Assembly: GCF_007859075.1 (NCBI RefSeq)
Contig: NZ_VOAK01000025.1
Location: 62,001 to 126,000 of the forward strand
Length of the DNA: 64,000 nucleotides
DNA from: Gemmobacter aquaticus
GTDB lineage: Bacteria > Pseudomonadota > Alphaproteobacteria > Rhodobacterales > Rhodobacteraceae
Direction: 5' to 3'
In this document: positions 54,547-62,316 of the stretch, piece by piece
How the letters are laid out: every line of letters begins with the position of its first letter
Numbering within the stretch: position 1 is the first letter of the stretch
Program-made: the position numbers and the translations under genes
Notes under the pieces: model-generated
The model's database searches: none
What the model was told of the DNA's origin: nothing
What the model saw: only the letters and a program-made list of their open reading frames with translations

Positions 54547-56148
54547 TCATTCCGCTGCCGGATTGACGGCACCGCCGGGCGCTGTGGCCATCCAGGCCCC
54601 AAGCGCGGCGATCTCCTCCGCCGTCATCCGCAACCCCAGTTTCGTCCGCCGCCACACGATATCGTCGGCGGTGCGGGCAAATTCCTTCTCTCGCAGCCAG
54701 AGTACCTCGGCCTCGGTCAATGTCGCGCCGAAGTTGCGTCCGAGGTCGCTTTCAGACTTCGCCGCCCCCAGAATGACAAATGCCTCTGTCCCGTAAGCCC
54801 GGATCAGGCGCTGCGCGTGGGACTGCGACAGGAACGGATACTCTGCCTGCAGCCGGGCAAGCAGCGCGGCCACCCCGTCATGCGGAAAATCGCCGCCCGG
54901 CAACGGCACGCGCGCGGTCCAGGCGTCTTTTGCCGACGGGAACCAGCGATCCAGCTTTTCCAGTGCGCTTTCGGCCAGCCGGCGATAGGTGGTAATCTTG
55001 CCGCCGAACACGTTCAGCAGCGGCGCCCCGTTGGTGTCGAGGCTGAGCACATAGTCCCGTGTTGCCGCCGTGGCCGATTTCGCGCCGTCATTGTAGAGCG
55101 GCCGGACACCGGAATAGGTCCATACCACATCGGCGGGTGTGACGGGACGTGCGAAATACTGGCTCGCAAAGGCGCACAGATAGTCGCGTTCCTCATCCGT
55201 GCAGCGCACGTCGCCGGGGCGTCCGGTATGATCCTTGTCGGTCGTCCCGATCAGGGTGAAATCCTGCTCATAGGGGATCGCAAATATGATGCGCCCGTCT
55301 GTTCCCTGAAAGAAGTAGCAGCGGTCATGGTCATACAGCTTGCGCGTCACGATGTGGCTGCCGCGCACAAGCCGCACCCCTTCGGACGAGTTGATACGCG
55401 TCACATTGCGGATCACATCCTCGACCCAGGGGCCGCCTGCGTTGACAAGCGCACGGGCATGGTGAACGGCCCGCGTGCCGTCGGCGCGTTCGGTGACGAC
55501 CTCCCAGAGATCGCACTCGCGGCTGGCTGAAAGGACGCGGGTCTTGGTCAGAATCGTTGCGCCGCGCGCCTCGGCATCGCGGGCGTTCAATACAACAAGC
55601 CGAGAGTCCTGCACCCAGCAGTCAGAGTACTCATAGGCCAGCTGAAACCCCGGCTTCAGAACTTTTCCAGCCTCATCGCGCGTCAGGTCCAGCGTGCGGG
55701 TTGCCGGCAGAATCTTGCGACCGCCCAGTGTGTCGTAAAGAAACAGCCCCAGACGGATCAGCCATGCCGGCCGGCGCCCCTTCATCCACGGCAGGGCAAA
55801 ACCGAGAAGGCGCGAGGTCGGCGTATCGCTTTCGAACCGCATATCGGAGGAATAGGGCAGCACAAAGCGCATGGGCCAACTGATATGGGGCATGGCCACC
55901 AGAAGGGTCTCACGCTCTTCCAGTGCTTCACGCACCAGGCGGAACTCGAAATACTCAAGATAGCGCAGTCCGCCATGGAACAGCTTGGTTGAGGCCGAAG
56001 AGGTGCCCTGCGCCAGGTCGCCCTGCTCGGCCAGCGTGACCGAAAGGCCGCGCCCTGCCGCATCGCGGGCGATGCCGCATCCGTTGATGCCGCCGCCGAT
56101 GATGAAGATGTCGGTCGTCGCGGACCGATCCACACCTGTCACGTTCAT
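54547..56148 (-). CDS. glpD: Glycerol-3-phosphate dehydrogenase (quinone)
   Basis: The membrane-associated FAD enzyme that oxidises glycerol 3-phosphate to dihydroxyacetone phosphate and feeds electrons to quinone. The 533-aa protein has the FAD motif IFIIGGGINGCGIARDAAGRGL, then SSASTKLFHGGLRYLEYFEFRLVREALEER, VNAGGPWVEDV and SGVRPLYNDGAKSATAATRDYVL. It is the first gene of the glp operon (strong GGGGGGAGG site) and is divergent from glpR across a region holding a likely operator. Confidence 0.96.
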   Translation of the reverse strand: MNVTGVDRSATTDIFIIGGGINGCGIARDAAGRGLSVTLAEQGDLAQGTSSASTKLFHGGLRYLEYFEFRLVREALEERETLLVAMPHISWPMRFVLPYSSDMRFESDTPTSRLLGFALPWMKGRRPAWLIRLGLFLYDTLGGRKILPATRTLDLTRDEAGKVLKPGFQLAYEYSDCWVQDSRLVVLNARDAEARGATILTKTRVLSASRECDLWEVVTERADGTRAVHHARALVNAGGPWVEDVIRNVTRINSSEGVRLVRGSHIVTRKLYDHDRCYFFQGTDGRIIFAIPYEQDFTLIGTTDKDHTGRPGDVRCTDEERDYLCAFASQYFARPVTPADVVWTYSGVRPLYNDGAKSATAATRDYVLSLDTNGAPLLNVFGGKITTYRRLAESALEKLDRWFPSAKDAWTARVPLPGGDFPHDGVAALLARLQAEYPFLSQSHAQRLIRAYGTEAFVILGAAKSESDLGRNFGATLTEAEVLWLREKEFARTADDIVWRRTKLGLRMTAEEIAALGAWMATAPGGAVNPAAE

Positions 56149-56216
56149 GCCTCCCCCCGGAGCCTTGTCTCCGCGGTGGAAAGCTGCACTGCAGATGTGC
56201 CATCGGTCAATCAAAA

Positions 56217-56250
56217 TTTTCGCTTATGATCGTTTTTTAACAAAAGCGAA
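56217..56250. promoter_or_regulatory. Candidate GlpR operator between glpD and glpR
   Basis: TTCGCTT (56219-56225) and AAGCGAA (56244-56250) form an inverted repeat within a very AT-rich stretch (56212-56252) in an otherwise GC-rich region. TTCG-containing half sites are typical of DeoR/GlpR regulators. Its position 69-102 bases before glpD fits promoter control. Confidence 0.5.
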
Positions 56251-56418
56251 CCAAAGCACGCCTTCAATCGCGCATCGCTGGCCGAAACAGAAGACTTGCG
56301 CGCATCCTTGGATGACGTAAAGTCAGAGGTTACAAGGGGATGTCCGTGCCTGGTTCGCGGCAGAATACAGACCCAAGCCGGCGATCTGGCCGGCGCCAGG
56401 CAAAGCGGGGAGGCAGCC

Positions 56419-57195
56419 TTGGCCTTGAGCATCCGACAAAGTGAGATCCTCGCGCTGGCGCGCGCAGAAGGCCGTGTTCTCGTCGATGATCTCGCGCATC
56501 GATTCGACGTGACATTGCAAACCATCCGCCGTGATCTGGGCGATCTGGCCGAGGCCGGACTTGTTGACCGTGTGCATGGCGGTGCAGTGCCGCGCGCCGG
56601 CACCGTGAACCTGGGGTATGAAGCACGGCGCCGCATGAATGCCGAGGCCAAGGCTGCCATCGCGGTGGCCTGCGCAGCGGCGATCCCCGACAACTCGTCG
56701 CTCATCCTCAATCTTGGGACCACAACCGAAGCAGTGGCCCATGCGCTGATCCACCACAGCAATATCACGGTGGTCACCAACAATATGAACGTGGCGAACA
56801 TCCTGCACGCCAATCCGGGGTGCGAGATCATGGTGGCGGGTGGGATGCTGCGCCGGTCGGATGGCGGCCTCGTGGGGGAGCTTACGACCCAGTTCATCGA
56901 GCAGTTCAAGGTCGACTATGCCATCATCGGCACCTCGGCGCTGGACTATGACGGCGATCTTCTGGACTTCGATCTGGCAGAGGTGCGGGTCAGCCGCGCG
57001 ATCCTGCGCCAGTCCCGCCAATCGTTTCTGGTGACGGATCATTCCAAGCTCGGCCGTTCGGCGCCCGCCCGGATCACCAGCATTGCAGATGTTGACGCCG
57101 TCTTTATTGATCAGGCGCTACCCGACGATCTGATGCGACGTTGTGAGGAATGGGGTACGGCTGTGCATGTGGCCCCGGTCCATCGCGACGAATAG
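56419..57195 (+). CDS. glpR: DeoR-family transcriptional repressor GlpR
   Basis: A glycerol-3-phosphate-responsive repressor. From the proposed TTG start it has 258 aa, close to E. coli GlpR (252). The N-terminal DeoR helix-turn-helix reads RQSEILALARAEGRVLVDDLAHRFDVTLQTIRRDL followed by EAGLVDRVHGGAV. The C-terminal sugar-phosphate-sensing domain has LNLGTTTEAVAHAL, NNMNVANIL and VTDHSKLGR. The TTG is favoured because GGGGAGG lies about 6 bases upstream and residues further upstream resemble no part of the family. Divergent from the glp operon. Confidence 0.9.
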   Translation: MALSIRQSEILALARAEGRVLVDDLAHRFDVTLQTIRRDLGDLAEAGLVDRVHGGAVPRAGTVNLGYEARRRMNAEAKAAIAVACAAAIPDNSSLILNLGTTTEAVAHALIHHSNITVVTNNMNVANILHANPGCEIMVAGGMLRRSDGGLVGELTTQFIEQFKVDYAIIGTSALDYDGDLLDFDLAEVRVSRAILRQSRQSFLVTDHSKLGRSAPARITSIADVDAVFIDQALPDDLMRRCEEWGTAVHVAPVHRDE

Positions 57196-57202
57196 AGCTG
57201 CA

Positions 57203-58036
57203 TCAGTTCGCCTGCCACCACATCGGCTGGGCGGAAAATTCGGCCCAAGCCGTGTCTGCGCGCAACAGGGTACGCAATTCCTGCGTGCCCACGCCCGTTT
57301 CACCGCTGCGCCTGCGGGCGTTTGCAAGATCGTTCAATGTCCCAAGGTCATCCTGCAAATCCTGCAGTCTCTCGCGGAACTGCTCCCAGTCACCGGCAGG
57401 CCAGAGGGGGGCGAAGAATTCGGCGAGATAGCGGAAGCTCTTCATGTCCTTGCGGAACTCGTGTCGGCTGTCCTCGGACAGGTGGGCAAGATCGGCGCCA
57501 TGGGTCTGGCAGGTCTGCCATGCGGCGGCCAAGGCCTGCGCGGCAAACTGCCCGACCGGCATGGCCTGCGCCGCGCGCGCCGCGCGTCTGCGGCCCAGCA
57601 GTTCGCCCGTGCCAAGGCTGCGCATCAGGCGCGCAGCAAAGCCAATCGCCTTTTTGCGCCTGATCTTTGAGCGCGTCTTGCGTCGCAGGCTGTCAGTTTC
57701 TTTCAGAAGAGCAGGGGTGCGCGCCCTCTCTGCAAGGCCGGCAATGAAGACGTCAGCATCACGCACATGGCCCAGTTGCCGAAAGATCGTTTTCGCTTCG
57801 TCCCGTGCGACCTTGCGCGCCTTTCGGCGCAAGAGTGGGGCAAAGGAATCAAGCGCTGTCGTCAGTCTGCGCAGGGCAACACGCGTCTTGTGAGCCCCCG
57901 ACTCTTCGTCGCTCTCCATGAACTGTGCGAGGTACATGTCGATGTCGCGGCAGATCTCGTCGAGGATCATGCGTAACGCCGCTTCAGCGGTGACCATCGG
58001 CGTGAAAACCGGGCTTGTCTCGTCGTCGGATGGCAT
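57203..58036 (-). CDS. CHAD domain protein
   Basis: CHAD domains are all-helical, rich in conserved His and basic residues, and bind inorganic polyphosphate. The 277-aa product shows VHKTRVALRRL-like repeats: ESGAHKTRVALRRLTTALDSFAPLL and EDSRHEFRKDMKSFRYLAEFFAPLW, the two halves of the domain. It has a Lys/Arg-rich middle (RRKTRSKIRRKKAIGFAARL). No CYTH or polyphosphate kinase gene is nearby. The inner start MPSDDETSP is a judgement; in-frame upstream ATGs exist, all with weak ribosome sites. It converges on glpR with 7 bases between. Confidence 0.82.
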   Translation of the reverse strand: MPSDDETSPVFTPMVTAEAALRMILDEICRDIDMYLAQFMESDEESGAHKTRVALRRLTTALDSFAPLLRRKARKVARDEAKTIFRQLGHVRDADVFIAGLAERARTPALLKETDSLRRKTRSKIRRKKAIGFAARLMRSLGTGELLGRRRAARAAQAMPVGQFAAQALAAAWQTCQTHGADLAHLSEDSRHEFRKDMKSFRYLAEFFAPLWPAGDWEQFRERLQDLQDDLGTLNDLANARRRSGETGVGTQELRTLLRADTAWAEFSAQPMWWQAN

Positions 58037-58257
58037 GATCACGATCCCCGAATCCCGGCCATGGCGTTTCGCGCGCAACATTAGCAGCCAAGCCCGCGCA
58101 GGGCGATATGGCATCAATGTTGCAGCAAGATGAACATCCTGGGTCGCCTGCGACTGAGGCATTCAGCATCGCTGTCGCACAATGCGGATGCAGCTAATCT
58201 AATCGGTTATATTAAGAGAGGCGGTACACAATGTTTTACCGCAGATTCACAAAAGAG

Positions 58258-58286
58258 AAAGGGTCGCCGGAATGCGGCGACCCTTT
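58258..58286 (-). terminator. Intrinsic terminator of the small minus-strand unit
   Basis: A perfect 11-bp stem AAAGGGTCGCC/GGCGACCCTTT with a 7-nt loop is followed on the minus strand by CTCTTTTG. The orientation ends a transcript coming from the ideal ribosome site at 58413-58429, not the convergent genes. Confidence 0.8.
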
Positions 58287-58356
58287 CCGAGTTTCAAGGA
58301 GATGGGCCAGTTAGGTACCAAGCCCAATCAGTGGTCAGATATCCAAGGGGTTGCCC

Positions 58357-58413
58357 TTAGAGATCACTCCTTCTGACTGTCCCGACACCTCTCTCCAATA
58401 TCACTCTAGACAC
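58357..58413 (-). CDS. Possible 18-aa leader peptide or microprotein
   Basis: A GTG start lies 7 bases after AGGAGG in GAAAGGAGGTGATCCAG, a site complementary to the 16S rRNA 3' end over its whole length. It opens the frame MSRVILERGVGTVRRSDL, ending in TAA. The peptide is basic and unlike any family I know. Downstream RNA (58290-58356) can fold into AAGGG/CCCTT, GTCAGA/TCTGAC and GGGC/GCCC stems before the terminator. It may be a regulatory leader peptide, a dual-function RNA, or a ribosome-binding decoy. Confidence 0.45.
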   Translation of the reverse strand: MSRVILERGVGTVRRSDL

Positions 58414-58483
58414 TGGATCACCTCCTTTCAATAAGTTGCCGATAAGCAAAAGGTGACACAGATTTCGTGTTTGTCAAAAGAAA

Positions 58484-59107
58484 TCACACAGCGCGTTGAG
58501 TCAATTTTCCGACAAGCACGCGGAATGGCACAAGCGCAACAGCCGCCATTGCAAGCTTTACAAGCCAGTCAGCGAAGGCCAGCGAGACCCACAGTGGCAC
58601 CACCGGACCCAGCCCGACCAGCGGCAGAGGTTCAGCCGCCCAGCTGACATCATTCGTCGGCTCCATGAATGAAAGAAATCCGGCAAAGGCGATGGTGAAA
58701 AAGATGGCGGTATCAAGGCAAGAGCTTGCGAGTGTGGAAACAAAGGGGGCCTTCCACCAATTACCGTCGCGCAGGCGATTGAAAATCGCGATGTCGGTCA
58801 ATTGCGCGGCAAGGAATGCAAGTCCAGAACCGATAGCGACACGCAAAGTCACCAGAGGGCCGAACTCGCCCATGATCTGCGATCCGATGAGCGAGCATAT
58901 GACGCCTGTCACAAAGCCCACGAGCACCACCTTGCGGGCTGCGGCGGCGCCCTGGATGCGGTTTGTCAGATCGGTGATCAGAAAGGCGACCGGGTAGGTC
59001 AGCGCACCCCAGGTCAGCCAAGGGCCAAGCAGGTGCTGTACGAGGATGTTGGATGCGACGACAGTCGCCGCCATGGCGATAACGCCGGGCAGAAGGGATT
59101 TCGACAT
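58484..59107 (-). CDS. Queuosine precursor transporter (YhhQ/VUT family)
   Basis: An inner-membrane transporter that imports preQ0/preQ1 for queuosine tRNA modification. The 207-aa protein has about six helices. Its family motifs are ATVVASNILVQHLLGPWLTWGALTYPVAFLITDLTNRIQGAAAARKVV, GSGLAFLAAQLTDIAIFNRLR and WKAPFVSTLASSCLDTAIFFTIAF. No preQ1 riboswitch pattern could be seen in its 94-base leader. A lone transporter suggests salvage of the precursor. Confidence 0.9.
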   Translation of the reverse strand: MSKSLLPGVIAMAATVVASNILVQHLLGPWLTWGALTYPVAFLITDLTNRIQGAAAARKVVLVGFVTGVICSLIGSQIMGEFGPLVTLRVAIGSGLAFLAAQLTDIAIFNRLRDGNWWKAPFVSTLASSCLDTAIFFTIAFAGFLSFMEPTNDVSWAAEPLPLVGLGPVVPLWVSLAFADWLVKLAMAAVALVPFRVLVGKLTQRAV

Positions 59108-59201
59108 TTGTATTTCCGTTTTTTACAAGGTCGCGGAGACTTGGCCCCCGGATCATCCGGCGGGGCGAGGCGGCGCTGATACTACCGGGGGCGGCGTTCT
59201 G

Positions 59202-60092
59202 TCAATCTTGAACGCGGTACTCGACGAACTCGGTCCGCTGGAAGAACTTGAAGTTGTCGTCCGAAAGCATGGTCAGGCGGATGCCTTCGGCGTCCTGCCA
59301 GACCGACAGCCCCTCAAGGTTGTCGTGCTGGCCGGGATGTGTCTCAAGCAGTGTCGCCTCGTTGGTGATGCGGTTGCCTGCGATGTCGAACCGCCGCACG
59401 CGCGCGGCAAAGCCCATCAGGCCGCGGAACTGGCGCTCCAGCACATAGAGCCTGCCATCCGGCCCGAAATCCGCGGCAACCGGCAGGAAGGTTCCGCGTC
59501 GCGGCAAGGTAAACGGCTGCGTCCACGCACCACCCTTGAAGCGATAGACCGGAAAGTCGCCGCCGGCGCGTAGATCCTCGGGCATGGTATAAAGCGCGCC
59601 GTCGGGGCCGATGGCCAGCGCCTCAAGTGCTGCATTGCCGGGCATGCGGCGGAAGTCTTGCGGAGTGGGCAGGTTCTGCGCGGAGCCGCCCAGCTGATCA
59701 TAGCGCAAAACCCGCGCCACCCCCTCGAACGAGATATAGGCGGTGCCATCAGGCGCGATGGCCAACCCTTCGCTATCGGACCGGCGCTTGCGCAGTGGCT
59801 GACCTTCACCGTCCAGCAGCAGTGCGATGGGGGCGGCGTCTACGCCCATGATGCGGCCCTGGCCGTCGCGGGCCAGATGCCCCGTCGTCCAGCCGCCGCG
59901 ATCGGAAAGGGCCGCAAAACGCATGCCATCGGCGCTGATCTCCAGCGCCGACATCCCGCCCATCCGGTCGTCACCCGACCGCCAGACAAAGCTTCCGACA
60001 TAGCCCGCGGCCCCGCCCACACGAGCGCTGGCGCTGCCCTCAAGGGCGAGGCCACAGGCCAGGATCAGCGTGCAGAAAGTACGGAAGCGCAT
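59202..60092 (-). CDS. Secreted esterase-like/phytase-like beta-propeller protein
   Basis: The 296-aa precursor has a Sec signal ([15 protein letters not shown]). The mature domain is of the esterase-like activity of phytase family: [64 protein letters not shown] and [15 protein letters not shown]. These are repeated propeller-type blades with Asp/Glu metal sites. A phosphatase or esterase role in the periplasm is possible, but the substrate is unknown. The start lies inside the 3' end of mepA (28-base overlap), so the two are co-transcribed. Confidence 0.8.
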
Positions 60093-60952
60093 TGGCCTGG
60101 AAGATCCGCCATCGTGTAATCACGGGCGCCTTTCTGTTTCGGGGCGTCCGGGTCGGCGGGTTGCTGCTTTGACGGATCGAGTGCGTCGGTGACCCACCAG
60201 TTCAGCGATTCATCACAGCCGCTGCCGCCATTTGACAATTCGGCCACTGTGGGGGTCTGCGTCTGGCAGAAGCTCGCGCCCTTGGGGCACTTCAGCCGCA
60301 CATGGAAATGCGCATCGTGCCCCCAGTAGGGGCGGATTTTTTGAAGCCATGCCTTGTCGCGCCGACTGGCGTTCCGGCACAGTTCGATCTTGACGGGCGG
60401 GGTCACGAAGATGCGGTCCACCCGTGGATCGGATGCCGCCGCCTTGAGCACCGCTGCATGCTGGGCTGTCCAGTTGCCATTCACGCGCCGCTGGTCATCG
60501 CTGCGCACCGAGATCGAGCTGATCTGCTCGCGTTCAGCCCGCGTCAGCGTCAGCCTGGGCGGGGGCAGCATCCAGATATCGGCATCGAGCCCGATCTGGT
60601 GGCTGGCATGACCCGAGGTCATCGGCCCGCCGCGCGGCTGGCTCATGTCACCGACATAGAGGCCGCGCCAACCAAGCCGGGTGACCTCTTGCGACAGGTC
60701 CTGCACGAAATCCACAAGCAGCGGATGGCCGAAGTTCCGGTTGCGTGACAGACGCATGGCCTGCCATGTCGGCCCGGTTTCCGGCAACTCTACCAGACCC
60801 GCCGCGCAGCCGCGCGAATAGGACCCGACCGGCATCGGATCGCCCTGCGCGGGCGCGTTGGCGGCGCCAAACAGCTTGTTCGCCAAGGGCTCTGCCGAGG
60901 CGGACAGCGCGACAAGGCCCAGAACGAGGCCAGTGCAGAGGGTACGGATCAT
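60065..60952 (-). CDS. mepA: Penicillin-insensitive murein endopeptidase MepA
   Basis: A periplasmic LAS-type metallopeptidase that cuts D-Ala-mDAP crosslinks in peptidoglycan. The 295-aa precursor has a signal peptide ([20 protein letters not shown]). It carries the zinc motifs [13 protein letters not shown] and [12 protein letters not shown], with the substrate region [14 protein letters not shown]. Multiple cysteines are present, as in other members. Its ATG overlaps the stop of the UMF1 transporter, and its end overlaps the phytase-like gene, so the three form one operon. Confidence 0.93.
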
Positions 60953-62316
60953 GGCTTTGCCTGTTCACCATTCGGTTTGACCCAGATTAGCAGAATGAGC
61001 GCAATCAGGAACAGTCCGATCAGGGGCGCGACCCCGATGCGCTGCGATCCGCTCAAGTCCGAGGCGATCGCGATCGCGAATGGCGCAATGAAGGACGTGG
61101 CCTTACCCGAAAGCGCATAAAGCCCGAAGGCCTCGGTCGCGCGCTCTGGCGTTGTGTGGAACACCATCATCGTGCGCGAGGCGGCCTGCACCGTTCCACC
61201 CGCCGCCCCGATCAGCATCCCGCAGGCATACATGACGATGTCAGGAATGGATGACCCGGCGGGCAGGGCGATGCCGAAGATCTGCTCGCGCGACATGCCG
61301 ACAATGACCGCGCAGACCAGGATCAGCACCCAGACCGAGGCCACGATCACCGGCTTCGGTCCGCGCAGCGCATCAATCCTGCCGCCGATCCAGGTGGCAA
61401 TCGCGCCCGACAGCGCCCCGATGATGCCAAAGACACCGATCTGCGTGACGCTCCAGCCCAGCACACCCGAGGCGTAGACCCCGCCAAAGCCGTAAAGCGC
61501 ATTGAGCGCGTCGCGGTAGAACATCGACGATCCCAGATAGGCAAAAAGGCTCTGCCGCGATGGCAGGGATTTGAGCAGCGCAAGCAGGTCGGCCAGCGAC
61601 TGCCCAAGGCTGCGACCGGTGCCCGTGGGCTTGGGCTCCTTCACCCATAGAAAGAACGGGATCATGAACAGGGCATACCAGAGGGCGGTGAAGGGGCCGA
61701 CCGCACGGGTCCCCTCGCGCGCGGCAGCATCGAGGCCGAACAATGGGTCAAGCCCGATCAGCGTCTTGCCGGTCTGCCCGTTTTCGGCCAGCAACAGCAG
61801 CATGATGACCAGCGAGACAATGCCCCCGGTATAGCCGAAGGCAAAGCCTGAGCCCGAGACCTTGCCCATCTCTTCCTGTGTCGCCAGCGAGGGCATCAGC
61901 GAGTTGGTGAAGATCGTCGCGAATTCCATCCCGATCAGGCCGAGCCCGAAAAAGGCGATGGCAAGGGTCAGGTCAGGCGTCGTGGGCGCCAGATACCAAA
62001 GCCCCCATGCACCCACCACGTAGCACAGCGAAAAAACCCAGATCCAGACCATCCGCCGTCCGGATCCATCGGCGATCGCGCCCAGAACGGGGGCGAGCAG
62101 CGCAATCATCAGCCCGGCAATCGTTTGGCCATAGCCCCATGTCGCCTGCGCTTGCGCGGCGGCGGCCGCCGGCTCCATGCCGGTGCTGGCATAATGGGCG
62201 CGCGCCACCTCGGCGAAATAGGGGCTGAAGATAAAGGTCAACAGAAGCGTATTGTAGGGTTGGCTGGCCCAGTCAAAGAAGTACCAGCCCCATATGCGTT
62301 TCTTCGCGCTGACCAT
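60949..62316 (-). CDS. UMF1/Atg22-like major facilitator transporter
   Basis: The 455-aa inner-membrane protein has about twelve helices and the UMF1-family (PF11700, Atg22-like) opening KKRIWGWYFFDWASQPYNTLLLTFIFSPYFAEVARA. GPVVGAIADGSG is replaced by the equivalent LAPVLGAIADGSGRR, and TMMVFHTTPERATEAFGLYALSGKATSFIAP is the C-terminal signature. The substrate is unknown; yeast Atg22 exports amino acids. GGGGG precedes the ATG about 8 bases upstream. It overlaps the mepA start. Confidence 0.88.
   Translation of the reverse strand: MVSAKKRIWGWYFFDWASQPYNTLLLTFIFSPYFAEVARAHYASTGMEPAAAAAQAQATWGYGQTIAGLMIALLAPVLGAIADGSGRRMVWIWVFSLCYVVGAWGLWYLAPTTPDLTLAIAFFGLGLIGMEFATIFTNSLMPSLATQEEMGKVSGSGFAFGYTGGIVSLVIMLLLLAENGQTGKTLIGLDPLFGLDAAAREGTRAVGPFTALWYALFMIPFFLWVKEPKPTGTGRSLGQSLADLLALLKSLPSRQSLFAYLGSSMFYRDALNALYGFGGVYASGVLGWSVTQIGVFGIIGALSGAIATWIGGRIDALRGPKPVIVASVWVLILVCAVIVGMSREQIFGIALPAGSSIPDIVMYACGMLIGAAGGTVQAASRTMMVFHTTPERATEAFGLYALSGKATSFIAPFAIAIASDLSGSQRIGVAPLIGLFLIALILLIWVKPNGEQAKP

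Follow-up and report, generated by a model that had tools for sequence, protein, structure and literature searches.

A small RNA of alphaproteobacteria, probably a distant relative of CC2171, with an extended 16S-complementary start site and a micro-ORF that looks selected for translation

6S RNA imitates a promoter for RNA polymerase, and tmRNA holds a short mRNA-like reading frame within a structured RNA. The RNA described here, found in a 64,000-nt stretch of the Gemmobacter aquaticus genome (this whole stretch is called the window), resembles 6S RNA by analogy only, as an RNA that would mimic the optimal substrate of a central machine of the cell, and differs from tmRNA in having a Shine-Dalgarno sequence and a start codon of its own. 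The Rfam search found no 6S match within positions 55000–62000 of the window, and tmRNA was rejected, as ARAGORN finds none in the window or in 8 related loci. A described, if distant, counterpart is CC2171 from Caulobacter (Rfam RF01867), so the statement of the earlier note on this DNA that no counterpart was known does not stand. CC2171 shares with the window RNA the 5' block GAAAGGAGGTGATCCAGTGTCT, the terminator and the overall length, but the middle part differs, the hairpin H2 and the internal CAYCUCC (see below) being features of the window's family. It is typed by Rfam as an sRNA gene, and no statement of translation was found there. In the accessible part of the Rfam 15 paper one covarying pair is added to CC2171 (PMC11701678), and the available portion of an sRNA table from Mesorhizobium huakuii gives an RF01867-annotated product of apparently 215 nt by RNA-seq (PMC5596092). 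Schrader et al. 2014 found two earlier-predicted Caulobacter ncRNAs to be translated, their identities not being given in the accessible text (PMC4117421).

The rnTrpL/peTrpL RNA of S. meliloti is a trp attenuator RNA with a 14-residue leader peptide (PMC10117765, accessible part). Like the window RNA, it is small, comes from alphaproteobacteria and carries a micro-ORF that is translated, translation being predicted in our case; it differs in that trpL is leaderless and located before trpE, whereas the window RNA has an extreme Shine-Dalgarno sequence and no fixed downstream gene. Extended Shine-Dalgarno pairing is on record, in the excerpt available, for start sites of Staphylococcus aureus mRNAs (PMC13009471), but these are start sites in another phylum and not one conserved RNA gene. 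The survey of Paracoccus denitrificans sRNAs describes conserved intergenic sRNAs, none of which, in the available text, could be matched to the window RNA (PMC5107571), and the accessible parts of papers on Bradyrhizobium (PMC5082802), Bartonella (PMC7717549) and Caulobacter (PMC12559287, PMC11005374) contain no counterpart that we could find. In the literature searched, no description of a translated, class-wide alphaproteobacterial RNA of such a kind was found.

The window RNA is encoded on the minus strand at about 58443–58250, as a compact unit of about 190 nt sited in the gap between a transporter gene and a CHAD gene. The features of the unit and its neighbours, in the direction of transcription, are as follows:

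58484–59107, minus strand: upstream neighbour, outside the RNA, a gene of the queuosine precursor transporter family (yhhQ; Pfam Vut_1, 94.1 bits; TIGR00697, 91.4 bits, cut-off 50.95)
58472–58477, minus strand: putative -35 element TTGACA (TTGAC or similar at the same place in many of 85 family loci, by eye)
58450–58460, minus strand: putative extended -10 element TGTGT-CACCTT, with a 16-nt spacer to the -35 element (pattern TGTGNCANNNT by eye in family loci)
58413–58429, minus strand: extended Shine-Dalgarno sequence GAAAGGAGGTGATCCAG, complementary to 17 bases of the 16S 3' end
58357–58413, minus strand: 18-codon ORF MSRVILERGVGTVRRSDL, with the GTG start at 58413–58411 and the TAA stop at 58359–58357
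58394–58417, minus strand: hairpin H2, TCCAGTGTC/GATATTGGA, with the loop TAGAGT and the start codon within the stem, predicted in the window fold
58403–58406, minus strand: 5' strand of helix P1, GAGT, inside the H2 loop, covarying with 58289–58292 across the family and, in other letters, between clades
58345–58358, minus strand: small hairpin AAGGGCAACCCCTT, overlapping the stop codon (GGCARCC or similar just past the stop in most family loci, by eye)
58296–58304, minus strand: internal anti-Shine-Dalgarno sequence CATCTCCTT, paired in the window fold with the part AAGGAGGTG of the Shine-Dalgarno sequence at 58419–58427
58289–58292, minus strand: 3' strand of helix P1, ACTC, directly before the terminator
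58250–58287, minus strand: intrinsic terminator AAAGGGTCGCCG-CATTC-CGGCGACCCTTT, then TCTCTTTT, read from the sequence and the window fold
57203–58162, minus strand: downstream neighbour, outside the RNA, a CHAD domain gene (Pfam CHAD, 119.5 bits); most family relatives have arfB here

Such an arrangement suggests a stand-alone small RNA gene with a predicted promoter and terminator of its own, whose transcription would start near 58443. This anatomy is well supported; the output of the RNA is what we infer. The fold of the window RNA is much more stable than that of 200 dinucleotide shuffles (-83.3 vs -59.9 ± 4.4 kcal/mol, z -5.3) and closes with a 14-bp hairpin, and a scripted search found the terminator hairpin in all but 4 related loci of sufficient length. 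The earlier note had described at this minus-strand site a unit of a Shine-Dalgarno sequence, a GTG at 7-base spacing, an 18-codon ORF and a terminator, and this unit is real, beyond what chance would give: the GTG indeed stands seven bases past the GGAGG of the Shine-Dalgarno sequence, and the length of the ORF recurs in the family (see below). The suggestion that the opposite strand could yield an anti-Shine-Dalgarno decoy finds no support, the promoter-like elements, the ORF and the terminator all sharing one direction.

The main family set comprised 85 loci, i.e. the window and 84 of the 89 loci fetched. The omitted ones were L079 (a match in genome G084 to RF01867 that proved false on reading), L081 and L086 (second matches in their genomes), and L053 and L089, which are true members that lack two bases of the ATCC part of the 16S match.

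The complement of GAAAGGAGGTGATCCAG equals the 17 bases CTGGATCACCTCCTTTC of the 16S 3' end. The identity, given already in the earlier note, was confirmed on the 16S end CTGGATCACCTCCTTTCTAAGGA of two alphaproteobacterial genomes in which the RNA is also present (G065 from the window's family, 16S in L294 and RNA in L001; G113 from the same class, 16S in L293 and RNA in L121); no 16S match was found in the window's own assembly. In that assembly the 17-mer has 1 exact site, and 3 sites including that one at up to 2 mismatches, and the reversed-pattern control has 0. Joint folding of the window RNA with the 18-nt 16S tail brings a gain of 16.9 kcal/mol, and all 188 sequences that were folded gain from pairing with the tail (mean net -21.6 kcal/mol, between -8.5 and -29.3, net of the RNA's own fold and with the tail from the window's family applied to all). 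This folded set includes 4 sequences without the scripted terminator, some too short, and at least 2 same-contig pairs (L010/L170 and L066/L204). Comparison of loci revealed that the 5' block is the most conserved portion of the RNA and that AAAGGAGGTG is the nearly invariant core of the 16S-tail complement; the ATCC part of the match is variable in some members of the window's family, and thus the full 17-base pairing is not required. Could the match be a decayed 16S fragment, as the earlier note had itself objected, or a product of chance? The identity of 17 bases to the complement of the 16S end is what suggests it, but the flanks are not 16S-like, the whole unit is conserved in relatives, and a looser version of the motif has matches in 50 of the 86 alphaproteobacterial genomes and in 0 of the 213 genomes from other Pseudomonadota (reversed control 0; the split was counted by hand), so that this explanation was rejected as practically untenable.

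The cmscan analysis identified RF01867 (CC2171) with 35.2 bits and an E-value of 5.8e-06 on 421 bases, below the gathering threshold of 75, and the window RNA was therefore not filed as a member of RF01867. The alignment is full-length (model positions 1–159 of 159), with a nearly identical 5' block and a poorly aligned middle, and P1 may be shared by its place, though not by its sequence. Because the order of parts is shared, the window RNA is probably a distant relative of CC2171 by common descent. Other Rfam matches at the site (STnc320, ctRNA_p42d, STnc390, suhB and others) were rejected, being far below their cut-offs and mostly on the terminator hairpin. Elsewhere in the window (60005–60150, plus strand) there is a weak match to the Pseudomonas sRNA P34 (23.6 bits, cut-off 44), probably due to chance.

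At E ≤0.01, RF01867 has matches in 88 of 100 genomes of the window's family (one of them the false match mentioned above), none of which is above the cut-off, and the conservation in relatives that the earlier note had counted on is thus found, together with an apparently selected frame and stop (see below). A small custom model detected the RNA in 2 of the 12 family genomes without an RF01867 match, which brings the overall count to at least 89 of 100, and in 5 of the 6 other genomes given alongside the 12, the window's own included. In the class as a whole, 69 of 289 genomes match RF01867, some weakly or partially, and 9 of the 289 exceed the cut-off; the looser motif was found in 54 of 289 genomes of a class-wide draw that includes many small, incomplete genomes. 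The exact 20-base motif occurs in at least 117 stretches of public genomes, and among the matches listed there are 80 loci, of which 77 bear the name of an alphaproteobacterium and 3 (L139, L155, L171) just that of a 'Proteobacteria bacterium'. Judging from these searches, which by motif or covariance model are biased towards members whose 5' end is conserved, the RNA is widespread among alphaproteobacteria and not universal. Among 14 control genomes, RF01867 matches Caulobacter vibrioides and Deinobacterium chartae, one of the two being over the cut-off; the match in D. chartae, a control that is not alphaproteobacterial, is weak and speaks against class specificity.

The micro-ORF has exactly 18 codons in 77 of the 85 family loci. 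Allowing for a two-base shift, the same length was seen by eye in L080, which belongs to the 85 and was scored as non-18, its start codon being two bases nearer, and outside the 85 in L053 and L089; by eye again, six further divergent members have 18 codons (four), 20 codons (one) and 13 codons (one). Codon 19 in the 85 loci is TGA in 38, TAG in 32, TAA in 7 and another codon in 8, and TGG, expected 15.8 times from the purine frequencies, was observed 0 times (Fisher p 4e-15, which is not a true probability, as the sequences are related). The first in-frame stop falls at codons 14–31 in 75 of 76 loci among the motif matches listed and in 30 of 30 class loci; the corresponding values are 22% and 28%, and 7% and 23%, for the two remaining frames, and composition would give about 26%. 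The test was applied to those 76 of the 80 motif loci whose length allowed it, and at least 2 of them share a contig with a family locus. An ORF of 14–31 codons is present in 78 of the 80 motif loci listed, L199 having 59 codons and L138 being cut by its end. Such constancy of length, frame and stop suggests that the ORF is selected for translation.

The peptide, in contrast, differs between clades: it is of the MSRxxLE[RK]GVGT type in the window's family and of the MSHGSA, MSHCH, MSSDF or KRCHLAGIAR types elsewhere, with the first two residues alone in common. What appears to be conserved, as far as comparison of sequences can tell, is the open frame with its stop and not the peptide. Or perhaps the RNA is a plain small mRNA, the 18-residue peptide being its product? 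The pattern MSRxxLE[RK]GVGT does recur in the family, where the TCT, TCG, TCA and TCC codons for Ser interchange at codon 2, the start and the stop look selected, and within codons 2–12 the entropy (0.45/0.50/0.60 bits at codon positions 1/2/3) displays a slight third-position excess, which leaves some room for the peptide. However, over the whole ORF no such excess exists (0.80/0.84/0.80 bits, 74 sequences), codon 3 is AGA in 72 of 74 sequences despite the synonymous Arg codons, the agreement of the clades ends after two residues, and many fixed positions are accounted for by the pairing of H2 and P1. We regard the small-mRNA reading as distinctly unlikely, and of the synonymous-biased conservation that the earlier note had proposed to look for, the slight excess in codons 2–12 is the part that was found. 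The 74 aligned sequences were taken from 79 eighteen-codon loci of the family type (L045, L164, L170, L201 and L204 were omitted, and L015 and L047 were re-cut by hand).

Helix P1 pairs codons 3–4 with the bases just before the terminator. The alignment of 74 sequences shifts the 3' strand of P1 by one or two columns, and P1 was therefore counted on unaligned sequences. In a narrow test on 71 family sequences (3 of the 74 are without the anchor), a mean of 4.27 out of 5 positions was paired, compared with 3.75 ± 0.07 after swapping of partners (the highest of 2000 swaps gave 3.99), and at one position 44 sequences have G-C and 26 have A-U. P1 thus appears to be kept by compensatory changes, and would be a pseudoknot if H2 formed at the same time. 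Wider segments pair better with matched than with other-clade strands in the MSHG (-18.7 vs -11.9 kcal/mol) and MSHC/R (-19.7 vs -11.2 kcal/mol) types, and with smaller gaps in the MSS type (-14.1 vs -10.2 kcal/mol), the mixed set (-15.1 vs -10.7 kcal/mol) and the family (-12.7 vs -8.8 kcal/mol), where just 24–28% of matched pairs (family, MSS, mixed) beat 95% of other-clade pairs. Swaps inside the family bring almost no change in the wide test (-12.7 vs -12.5 kcal/mol), the separation there being given by the narrow test only.

In a selection of 28 family sequences, 94.8% of the cells of hairpin H2 are paired, and sliding lowers this to 37.7–48.4%. H2 shows weak covariation, with 94.2% as the mean after shuffling and a single pair altered on both sides, as expected, because one of its strands is the fixed start site. 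The motif CAYCUCC or a similar one, able to pair with the Shine-Dalgarno sequence, is repeatedly found at the same place of the family alignment; no covariation can be counted for this pairing, since the Shine-Dalgarno side hardly varies. Alternative pairings, as the earlier note had foreseen, are present around the Shine-Dalgarno sequence and P1, but its proposal of AAGGAG with CTCCTT was rejected: AAGGAG lies at 58372–58367 and not at 58368–58363, the family alignment shows no conservation of it, and the recurrent partner of CATCTCCTT (58304–58296) is AAGGAGGTG (58427–58419) instead. In predicted ensembles the mean pairing of the Shine-Dalgarno sequence is 0.98 in 82 family-type sequences and 0.61–0.75 in three other types; as it is partly paired in the latter, its hiding may be peculiar to the window's family.

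In the genomic neighbourhood of 80 of the 85 family loci, the queuosine precursor transporter gene lies upstream of the RNA, in the same orientation. Downstream, again in this orientation, arfB is present in 66 loci, and no more than 430 nt separate it from the Shine-Dalgarno sequence in 62 of these (the identity of arfB was checked for one downstream gene: 179.3 bits, cut-off 100). In 19 of the 85 loci, the window included, arfB is absent within the flank of about 1.5 kb; the window genome has an arfB-like RF-1 gene on another contig, and the window alone among the 85 has CHAD downstream. It may be asked whether the RNA is a translation-coupled attenuator or leader of the downstream gene, in most cases arfB, the window representing a lineage in which CHAD has replaced it. 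The frequent adjacency agrees with such a role, and a leader that senses ribosomes would sensibly control arfB, a gene for the rescue of stalled ribosomes. However, besides the 19 family loci without a nearby arfB, the 93 loci of other types have arfB downstream in 0 cases (upstream and reversed in 1) and yhhQ in 0, some downstream predicted genes are convergent (in about ten of the 30 class loci a gene predicted by an ORF heuristic, not by annotation, faces the RNA), and incidental inspection of the predicted folds brought to notice no antiterminator partner that would open the terminator. The recurrent neighbours are mostly confined to one RNA type, and since they change between clades while the RNA persists, a general role as an attenuator, proposed originally in the form of a leader-peptide attenuator, is not supported and seems unlikely; because arfB follows in 66 of the 85 loci, a local, family-level effect on arfB is possible. 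In the loci of other types neither yhhQ nor CHAD accompanies the RNA, and both were rejected as general partners. A dual-function small RNA, the second likeness drawn in the earlier note, is conceivable: the constancy of stop, frame and length of the ORF would agree with translation, and the peptide is not shared by the clades.

The reading that we prefer, and to which we would give an even chance, is that of a translated, structure-gated regulatory RNA of alphaproteobacteria, which senses ribosome loading and works through being translated. It rests on those parts that are shown by comparison, i.e. the 16S-tail complement, the spacing of the start, the selected ORF with its stop, and the compensatory changes in P1. 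What counts against it is the variable ATCC part of the 16S match, the partly paired Shine-Dalgarno sequence of three other types, the weak outcome for P1 in the wide test and for the covariation of H2, the slight third-position excess in codons 2–12, and the eight of the 85 loci in which the count did not give 18 codons. A ribosome crossing the micro-ORF would open P1 and H2 (the 5' half) and free the 3' half; without ribosomes the RNA would close, with the Shine-Dalgarno sequence and the start codon hidden, and its state would be set by the number of ribosomes free to initiate. Candidate outputs are pairing in trans, the stability of the RNA itself and titration of ribosomes, of which a regulatory output in trans, governed by translation, seems to us the most likely; on incidental inspection no conserved seed for trans pairing was noticed outside the 5' block.

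Or perhaps the RNA could be a decoy for ribosomes, a translational counterpart of 6S RNA, in which a perfect mimic of an initiation site holds the 30S subunit and the ORF lets ribosomes leave by termination? The 5' block, as the most conserved part, and the mean gain of 21.6 kcal/mol with the 16S tail, after the cost of the RNA's own fold, are consistent with such a function, and P1, which starts a few bases past the start codon, could hold an initiating 30S subunit. Yet a pure decoy needs no ORF of a length fixed at 18 codons, and in the window's family the internal anti-Shine-Dalgarno sequence would limit the capture, which makes the decoy improbable. A 'translational 6S RNA', i.e. a lineage-wide mimic of the ideal initiation site that would capture or count free ribosomes via the 16S tail, let them go again through translation of a throw-away micro-ORF and feed ribosome availability back onto translation, is a conceivable proposal, about which we are on balance doubtful.

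If the preferred reading of a translated, structure-gated RNA is true, an RNA gene that much of the class has preserved, with selection on its translation but not on its peptide, would constitute a natural sensor of ribosome loading, and the matching of translation capacity to need in alphaproteobacteria would become directly testable. The picture of CC2171 is corrected in that relatives of an Rfam family typed as sRNA carry a reading frame that appears to be selected, and that these relatives extend well past what the curated cut-off shows.

Two minor observations concern RNAs of the other types. The loci of the Bradyrhizobium type (L205, L169, L179, L183, L186) have a 14-codon ORF ending in KRCHLAGIAR, the DNA of which holds the 16S-tail-like CACCTCGCTGGGATC. 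In several loci of the MSHC type the ORF contains CTGGATC, a possible pairing partner for the extended Shine-Dalgarno sequence GATCCAG, and in L112 the corresponding segments, compared by eye, are GATCCTG and CAGGATC, which amounts to a compensatory change with respect to GATCCAG/CTGGATC.
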